In this document: positions 6,887 through 8,397 of the stretch, in pieces
How positions within the stretch are numbered: position 1 is the first letter of the stretch
Layout of the letters: each line of letters opens with the position of its first letter
Source of the DNA: Treponema sp.
GTDB lineage: Bacteria > Spirochaetota > Spirochaetia > Treponematales > Treponemataceae
Direction: 5' to 3'
Length of the DNA: 35,147 bases
Assembly: GCA_024697295.1 (NCBI GenBank)
Contig: JAILFZ010000136.1
Coordinates: 1-35,147, forward strand
The notes under the pieces: generated by a model
What the model saw: the letters and a program-made list of their open reading frames with translations, nothing else
Told to the model about the DNA's origin: nothing
Database searches by the model: none
Position numbers and translations under genes: made by a program

Positions 6887-7729
6887 CTATTTTATTGCGC
6901 CAAATTTGCAACGTTCAATACATTCACCGCATCGGATGCACTCACGGTCATTGATTTTTAACACGTCCATTTTACAAAAATTAGTGCAGGCGTTGCAATT
7001 AGTACACTTTTTATTATCGACTTTTATACCGAAAATTGCAGTTTTATTGAAGAATGAATAAATCGCACCAAGCGGACAGAAAAAGCGGCAGAAAGGCCTG
7101 TACATAAAAACCGACCATATGATAAAGCTTGCAGCAACCGCACTCTTCCACAAAAAAATGTGTCCCGCCGCAGAGCGTAAATATTCATTAAGCGCGGTCA
7201 AAGGCCATCCTGCAAAAATAGTTCCTGCAGGACAAAACCACTTGCAGAAAAGTGGCGAAGAAATTCCATTTTTAAAATAAAAATATACCGGAATCAAAAT
7301 GCACATAAAGGCAAGGATAAAATACTTAAGGAGAGAAATTTTTCTTGTTACACGCAGTGTCTTCGGGCTCTTTTTAAGTTTTGGAAGCGGAATTCTGTAA
7401 AAAAGTTCCTGGACAAGACCGAACGGACACAAAAACGAACACACCATGCGTCCAAAAAGTGTTCCTGTCAAAAGCAAAAAGCCAGTCACAAAAAACGGAA
7501 ACCTGCCGTTTCCAATCGTGTTCTGCAATGAACCGAGCGGACAGGAAGCGACCGCCCCGGGGCAGGAATAACAGTTGAGCCCCGGAACGCAGCCCCGCTT
7601 GAGCGGGCTTGAAGAAATGCCGCCGCTAAACCAGCGTTTAACGTCAGCATTGTAAACAAGCATTGCGGTAAATTGAACTAACTTTCTTCGAATATTTGAG
7701 TTCTTAAAAGCCTTAAGCAATTCCCACAC
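6887..7729 (-). CDS. 4Fe-4S membrane polyferredoxin (NapH/NosR/YccM-like)
   Basis: The 280-residue protein has about five membrane spans and several cysteine clusters: CPGAVASCPLG, CSFLCPFG, FCKWFCPAG and CRFFCPLG in the membrane part. Two ferredoxin motifs close the protein, CTNCNACTNFCKMD and CIRCGECIERCKFGA (about residues 242-277). Paired CPxG motifs facing the membrane are the NapH/NosR/RnfB-like electron-transfer pattern. It could pass electrons between a cytoplasmic donor and an extracytoplasmic acceptor. The start is GTG 7729, inside the end of the CXXC peptide gene (17-base overlap). The genes before it encode that peptide and a TlpA-like lipoprotein, which suggests the acceptor is a thiol protein outside the membrane (inference). 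Confidence 0.88.
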   Translation of the reverse strand: MWELLKAFKNSNIRRKLVQFTAMLVYNADVKRWFSGGISSSPLKRGCVPGLNCYSCPGAVASCPLGSLQNTIGNGRFPFFVTGFLLLTGTLFGRMVCSFLCPFGLVQELFYRIPLPKLKKSPKTLRVTRKISLLKYFILAFMCILIPVYFYFKNGISSPLFCKWFCPAGTIFAGWPLTALNEYLRSAAGHIFLWKSAVAASFIIWSVFMYRPFCRFFCPLGAIYSFFNKTAIFGIKVDNKKCTNCNACTNFCKMDVLKINDRECIRCGECIERCKFGAIK

Positions 7730-7862
7730 ACTCCATACAGATAAAAACTGCCTTTCTGAAGATATTCAGATTGTCGCCGAGCAAAATGCCCGCAGCAAGG
7801 AGACAAAAGGAGACAATGAGTAAAACCACAGAAAGTCTGGAAAAGTGAATTTTATTCGACAT
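7713..7862 (-). CDS. CD1871A-like CXXC membrane micropeptide
   Basis: This 49-codon gene is easy to miss. Its ATG is at 7862, inside the last codons of the TlpA gene (11-base overlap), and its TAA at 7713-7715 lies inside the start of the polyferredoxin gene (17-base overlap). The peptide has a short basic N-terminus (MSNKIHFSR), one membrane span (about residues 11-29, VVLLIVSFCLLAAGILLG) and a C-terminal tail FRKAVFICMECVGIA with a CxxC pair. Small proteins with a single span and a terminal C-x-x-C-[IV]-G motif are known as the CD1871A family and, to my knowledge, are found beside 4Fe-4S membrane proteins. Function is unknown. The Cys pair could be a thiol relay or a cluster ligand. Nested overlaps on both sides argue strongly that it is translated. 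Confidence 0.82.
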   Translation of the reverse strand: MSNKIHFSRLSVVLLIVSFCLLAAGILLGDNLNIFRKAVFICMECVGIA

Positions 7863-8397
7863 AACCTTTTACAAACTGAGCAAGCTGTTCTTCGCTCATC
7901 ATGCCGACATTCGTTTTGAGGACTGTGCCGTCCGGTCCGATAAGCACAGTAGTCGGGATTCCCTGGACACCGTAACTTGCAGCAACGATTCCGCTCTTAT
8001 CAAGTGCTCCGGTAAAGGTGTAGTTGTTTTCTTTCATAAAGGCTGAACGCTCGTCTTCCGTGTCAGAAACACAAACCGCCAGGAATTCAAGTTTTTTAGA
8101 ATCGCCCTGGGATTCAAGTTTTTCAAAAAAAGCCTGCATGCCGGGAAGTTCTGCGCGGCATGGCGGACACCAGGTTGCCCAGAAATGCAAAAGCAGAGCT
8201 TTTCCTTCATAGTCTTTCAGACTTACCTGTCTGCCGTTTTCTTTATCAACAAGCTTCAATTTAAAATCAGGAGCCTTGCTTGCCTTAGTTTTTGCCGAAG
8301 ACGGCTCAGTGCTTTCAATTGTTTTTTTATTGGTCTTTGCACACGAAACAGATCCAATCATCGTGATTGCCAAAATGACGGTTAATAATTTTTTCAT
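7852..8397 (-). CDS. TlpA/ResA-like thioredoxin-fold lipoprotein
   Basis: The 181-residue product starts with a lipoprotein signal (MKKLLTVILAITMIGSVSCA, lipobox GSVSC, a relaxed spirochaetal type). A polar linker follows, then a redoxin domain: APDFKLKLVDKENGRQVSLK, LLHFWATWCPPCRAELPGM with the WCxxC active site, GIPTTVLIGPDG with the cis-Pro, and KTNVG. Such proteins reduce disulfides outside the cytoplasmic membrane, for example in cytochrome c maturation or oxidant defence. I chose ATG 8397 because GGAGGT lies just upstream and the signal peptide starts there. A longer frame to 8514 adds 39 residues without merit. It needs an electron donor, and the adjacent CXXC peptide and polyferredoxin are the obvious candidates. 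Confidence 0.92.
   Translation of the reverse strand: MKKLLTVILAITMIGSVSCAKTNKKTIESTEPSSAKTKASKAPDFKLKLVDKENGRQVSLKDYEGKALLLHFWATWCPPCRAELPGMQAFFEKLESQGDSKKLEFLAVCVSDTEDERSAFMKENNYTFTGALDKSGIVAASYGVQGIPTTVLIGPDGTVLKTNVGMMSEEQLAQFVKGYVE

Follow-up and report, generated by a model that had tools for sequence, protein, structure and literature searches.

Three overlapping genes in the Treponema window

The reverse strand of the window (the whole 35,147-nucleotide stretch of Treponema sp. DNA analysed) carries three overlapping genes, encoding a TlpA/ResA-like lipoprotein, a short membrane peptide and a NapH-like membrane iron-sulfur protein (Table 1). The first-pass annotation had described the same three genes, with overlaps of 11 and 17 bases, and its coordinates check. 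The TlpA and peptide genes share positions 7852-7862, whereas the 17-base overlap of the peptide and NapH-like genes depends on the GTG start, and becomes 8 bases with TTG 7720, the sole other candidate. The window has no start codon between the peptide stop and the conserved region of the NapH-like gene; because both alternative starts overlap the peptide gene, the existence of this overlap is certain, although its length is not. It recurs as a family feature, the NapH-like frame being without a start codon past the peptide stop in 85 of 142 distinct pairs, which fits translational coupling. A promoter scan gave a result no better than shuffles, and a scan for terminator-like matches (10, compared with 4.6 in shuffles) was uninformative because none of them lies where the three-gene set ends.

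Table 1. Positions of the three genes and of their cysteine motifs in the window
Feature	Position	Strand	Basis or conservation
TlpA/ResA-like thioredoxin-fold lipoprotein, 181 aa	7852..8397	-	Pfam AhpC-TSA and Redoxin
TlpA lipobox Cys19	8341-8343	-	Sequence
TlpA CPPC, residues 77-80	8158-8169	-	Sequence
CD1871A-family membrane peptide, 49 aa	7713..7862	-	NF040920 match
CXXC motif of the peptide (CMEC, residues 42-45 of 49)	7728..7739	-	Both Cys invariant in alignment A1
NapH-like membrane iron-sulfur protein, 280 aa	6887..7729	-	Fer4_5 and Fer4; start GTG 7729 or TTG 7720
Predicted outer four-Cys motif, C47-C53-C56-C63 (CVPGxNCYSCPGA...CP)	7541..7591	-	147/147 homologues bar one C63W
Predicted inner CX3CP, C97/C101	7427..7441	-	147/147
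Predicted outer CX3CP, C162/C166	7232..7246	-	147/147; side inferred
Predicted inner CX3CP, C214/C218	7076..7090	-	147/147
Two C-terminal [4Fe-4S] ferredoxin motifs (C242-C252, C264-C274), predicted cytoplasmic	6908..7006	-	Fer4; 147/147

The lipoprotein has the domain (AhpC-TSA 93.7 bits, Redoxin 87.8 bits, both above the Pfam cut-off), the CPPC, the GIPTT cis-Pro motif and the lipobox for export that are expected of the TlpA/ResA type, and lies below the curated equivalogs for ResA (NF002854, 110.7 of 170 bits) and TlpA (NF047696, 64.5 of 230 bits). The NapH-like protein is likewise above the Pfam cut-offs for its domains (Fer4_5, PF12801, 62.5 bits; Fer4, 35.8 bits) and fails those for NapH itself (TIGR02163, 60 of 213 bits; NF007013, 51.4 of 234 bits).

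The peptide, MSNKIHFSRLSVVLLIVSFCLLAAGILLGDNLNIFRKAVFICMECVGIA, has no Pfam match and scores 36.6-37.5 bits against the CD1871A_fam model NF040920, passing its curated cut-off of 32; a resemblance to this family had been suggested from the letters of the DNA, as had a single membrane span and a terminal CMEC pair, and all of these are borne out. One hydrophobic span, at about residues 10-29 (12-28 on a narrower delimitation), is followed by the CXXC at the extreme C terminus, as in the family at large, within a conserved segment that ends CMECVGIA in the window copy. Conservation among the homologues is highest at the two cysteines and at an almost invariant CIG[IL]G ending. A second full set, in the same gene order, lies on another contig (C41) of the assembly, with a TlpA-like protein of 171 aa, a peptide of 50 aa that ends RICMECIGIG and scores 62.5-63.4 bits against NF040920, and a NapH-like protein of 287 aa. 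By sequence, this second set is the typical Treponema form and the window copy, the peptide of which is without the RGE that follows the membrane span, a diverged one. The second copy, together with conservation of the frame and of the CXXC in hundreds of genomes, indicates that the peptide is not a chance open reading frame, and the loss of conservation that would have spoken against it was not found. A Cys-less CD1871A-like peptide (AISLHYIGIG; L191:2709-2867, reverse strand) was also observed, scoring below the cut-off, in a genome that does not have the NapH-like partner.

Pairing across genomes and domain fusions

In Treponema the peptide is carried by 78 of 146 genomes, and in 79 of 82 peptide matches the NapH-like gene is next on the same strand. 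The three unpaired matches are in G099, where the contig ends with the NapH-like frame just starting, in G113, which was traced only to the end of the stretch examined, and in G094, a weak match with in-frame stops. Looked at from the other partner, the peptide precedes 80 of 82 strong NapH-like matches, the other two being partial. Among 245 genomes of Clostridia, the 44 strong NapH-like matches (over 250 bits) and the 44 above-cut-off peptides coincide in place. A collection scan returned 536 relatives, the best 80 of which, drawn from Spirochaetes, many Clostridia and one Pyramidobacter, were compared by gene neighbourhood. In 78 of these loci the peptide is followed by the NapH-like gene, and the remaining two end soon past the peptide; TlpA-like genes occur in 70 of the same best 80, ahead of the peptide in 60 and behind the NapH-like gene in 10. 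These counts imply that the NapH-like protein is the obligate partner of the peptide and that TlpA is a frequent third member. The co-occurrence proposed earlier thus proved to be near one-to-one for the polyferredoxin, whereas for TlpA it is frequent but without strict adjacency. Since its strict partner is the NapH-like protein and not TlpA, the peptide is best viewed as a small subunit of the former.

The only plasmid carrier was that of Peptoclostridium acidaminophilum, in which the peptide and NapH-like genes overlap and the TlpA gene lies 1.5 kb upstream. All three families are annotated close together in Peptoclostridium in RefSeq, such that the parts have already been named, although apparently not the system; a literature search found no paper naming CD1871A, or the trio of TlpA, 4Fe-4S protein and CXXC peptide. 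The CD1871A family thus carries a name only, whereas here its member appears as the obligate partner of one NapH-like subfamily.

Some loci depart from the compact arrangement. In one Treponema genome a gene for an unrelated protein of about 450 aa (L230:1364-2707, forward strand) lies between the peptide and NapH-like genes, and in three others the two are separated by 0.8-1.2 kb. In Clostridia with TlpA after the NapH-like gene (L079, L087, L100 and L113) a histidine kinase/OmpR regulator pair often adjoins the set, divergently in three of these four, which suggests regulation.

The peptide could instead have a structural or assembly role in the NapH-like protein, with the outer cluster of the latter passing electrons directly to TlpA or to another acceptor, as its shortness, its obligate pairing and the loci from which TlpA is missing would allow. 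We consider this quite unlikely, given that the most conserved part of the peptide is precisely its two cysteines and CIG[IL]G end, and that the lone Cys-less homologue (L191) belongs to a genome without this NapH-like protein.

A functional tie between the NapH-like protein and TlpA is indicated by fusions. In two Clostridia (G386 and G344; loci L186 and L187) a NapH-like domain is joined in one frame, through a further hydrophobic segment, to a TlpA/redoxin domain, giving proteins of 798 and 585 aa that score 55.1 and 41.1 bits against the Redoxin model, the cut-off of which is 26.6. The upstream gene overlapping each fusion encodes a membrane protein of 276-299 aa with a C-terminal CD1871A domain above the cut-off.

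Cysteine motifs, a candidate selenoprotein and structure models

The NapH-like protein has 18 cysteines, four in CVPGxNCYSCPGAxxxCPxG, six in three CX3CP pairs and eight in two ferredoxin motifs, all of which are kept in 147 sequences with the single exception of C63W. From charge and hydropathy, the four-Cys motif and C162/C166 are predicted to face outward, and the ferredoxin motifs and remaining two CX3CP pairs to lie on the inner side. On comparison with the PDB, matches were confined to the ferredoxin part, the membrane part matching no solved structure. The Fer4_5 membrane protein, CX3CP motifs and two ferredoxin motifs are shared with NapH/MauN and with the NapH-like proteins described by Meheust et al. 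2021 (PMC8238504) as modular trans-membrane conduits to FMN-binding carriers and oxidoreductases. The window protein differs in lying far below the NapH cut-offs and in its extra outer four-Cys motif, and its outer partners would be the CXXC peptide and TlpA, which is unmentioned in that work, in place of an FMN domain.

A different NapH-like iron-sulfur protein of about 393 aa directly follows a CcdA-like DsbD_2 protein in about 20 Treponema genomes (for example L147:1829-4336, forward strand, and L148), with no peptide or TlpA next door. The outer CX3C is present in NapH-like proteins unpaired with the peptide, both in this arrangement (L147) and elsewhere (L189).

In one genome (G248), the peptide gene (L192:2392-2538, forward strand) reads LNKAVRV-TGA-LECIGIG-stop, with the TGA in precisely the position of the first CXXC cysteine; an intact NapH-like gene lies behind it, and TlpA is not adjacent. 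The same genome has selD-selA-selB and tRNA-Sec in a row (selD and selA named by sequence alone), its selD itself contains a TGA (GUAAK), and among five genomes tested it alone has a full-length SelB. An in-frame TGA in a Sec-decoding genome makes this peptide a probable UxxC selenoprotein (VULECIGIG), and Sec in place of the first Cys would indicate that the thiols act in redox chemistry. The TGA may nevertheless stem from a mutation or a sequencing error, since the survey of well over 100 peptides gave this lone case and since the SECIS search found a 6-bp hairpin 12 nt past it with an energy no better than shuffles.

The two peptide cysteines added to the 18 make 20, a number that fits five [4Fe-4S] clusters, and for this reason we retain the reading in which the CXXC is not redox-active alone but contributes two ligands to an iron-sulfur cluster that it holds jointly with the outer CX3CP pair, C162/C166. 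Although the obligate, one-to-one pairing and the predicted outer location of both Cys pairs agree with such a shared cluster, the peptide-free relatives (L147, L189) retain the outer CX3C, and replacement of the first Cys by Sec is more typical of redox thiols; overall we regard it as somewhat unlikely, while the strongest of the alternatives.

For AlphaFold2 the peptide and NapH-like protein were joined in one chain, with the peptide stop read as Gly where both genes share a frame, which is a modelling device and not a claim of read-through; peptide-only rows, being misaligned along the NapH-like protein, were left out of the structural alignment (A4). In both models, which are of good overall confidence (pLDDT 86.7 and 85.1; pTM 0.86 and 0.84), the peptide forms a membrane helix, whereas its C terminus is bridged to another part of the chain in the first and disordered in the second. 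Docking of the peptide was not read from the models, as this C-terminal contact was not reproduced.

A proposed trans-envelope thiol-reducing module

We propose that the three genes probably encode a trans-envelope thiol-reducing module, in which a NapH-like iron-sulfur wire would supply the peptide dithiol and the latter TlpA. In this mechanism, which is predicted as to its topology, number of clusters, electron donor and substrate as well as the direction and order of transfer, the two cytoplasmic [4Fe-4S] clusters would be reduced by a donor in the cytosol, such as ferredoxin or flavodoxin, or by quinol, and further clusters would pass them to the outer four-Cys site. The peptide, as an obligate small subunit with its membrane helix holding the C-terminal CXXC at the outer face, would convert one-electron iron-sulfur chemistry to two-electron dithiol chemistry and reduce the CPPC of TlpA, which may in turn keep extracytoplasmic substrates reduced. 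Such a conversion would resemble that by ferredoxin-thioredoxin reductase, which, however, is a soluble enzyme of different fold.

The proposal starts from what is read in the genomes, namely the families, the invariant cysteines, the overlapping frames, the obligate pairing of the peptide with the NapH-like protein, the frequent presence of TlpA and the NapH-TlpA fusions, and is supported further by the second set, the TGA at the first Cys, the outer Cys motifs opposite the ferredoxin domain and the conduits of PMC8238504. Counting against it are the pairs beside which TlpA is absent, including the TGA case, the outer CX3C of proteins without the peptide, the C-terminal bridge being in one AlphaFold2 model only, and the coexistence of DsbD-type proteins in many genomes.

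Sequence does not reveal direction, and the module could in principle run in reverse, with TlpA acting to oxidise thiols or form disulfides while electrons are drawn inward through the peptide and iron-sulfur protein. TlpA/ResA-like domains are, however, for the most part reductants, and the hosts of the module are anaerobes. NapH-like proteins, moreover, mostly feed extracytosolic carriers, although some have been placed with oxidases (PMC8238504), and we consider an inward flow very improbable.

With respect to DsbD/CcdA, to which the module had been suggested as an alternative, the assembly containing the window (1.93 Mb in 205 contigs, 82.8% complete) gave no match to DsbD_TM (PF02683) or DsbD_2 (PF13386). 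In Clostridia, PF02683 is present in 12 of 39 peptide-bearing genomes compared with 112 of 206 others (Fisher p 0.008, kinship ignored), whereas in Treponema DsbD-type domains occur in 20 of 77 peptide-bearing genomes and 22 of 69 others (p 0.47), with no negative association. Strict mutual exclusion is thus ruled out in Treponema, and the negative association in Clostridia is modest; the suggestion holds to the extent that the module appears to be an alternative or an addition to DsbD/CcdA, not a strict replacement. As a separate observation, among Treponema genomes with DsbD_2 proteins of 420-670 aa (G017, G020, G077 and others) the peptide is present in 15 of 17 (p 0.002).

The closest functional parallel is the feeding of TlpA-like lipoproteins by CcdA/DsbD-type proteins, as in the pneumococcal CcdA-Etrx system (PMC3914529). 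The proposed transfer of trans-membrane reducing power to a thioredoxin-fold lipoprotein is common to both, with an iron-sulfur protein and peptide here in place of a DsbD_TM or DsbD_2 domain; in contrast to that system, no MsrAB was found among the 20 flanking genes tested.

More generally, the chances seem even that the CD1871A peptide and its NapH-like partner constitute a distinct, DsbD/CcdA-independent class of membrane thiol reductase, in which an iron-sulfur wire with a minimal CXXC (rarely UxxC) peptide at its end would reduce TlpA-type proteins outside the cell. A named family of unassigned function thereby gains a partner and a probable role, and the module provides a compact, widespread and testable candidate for extracytoplasmic thiol reduction in anaerobes without DsbD or CcdA. 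If the proposal is correct, thiols would join FMN domains and cytochromes as acceptors of NapH-like electron conduits.
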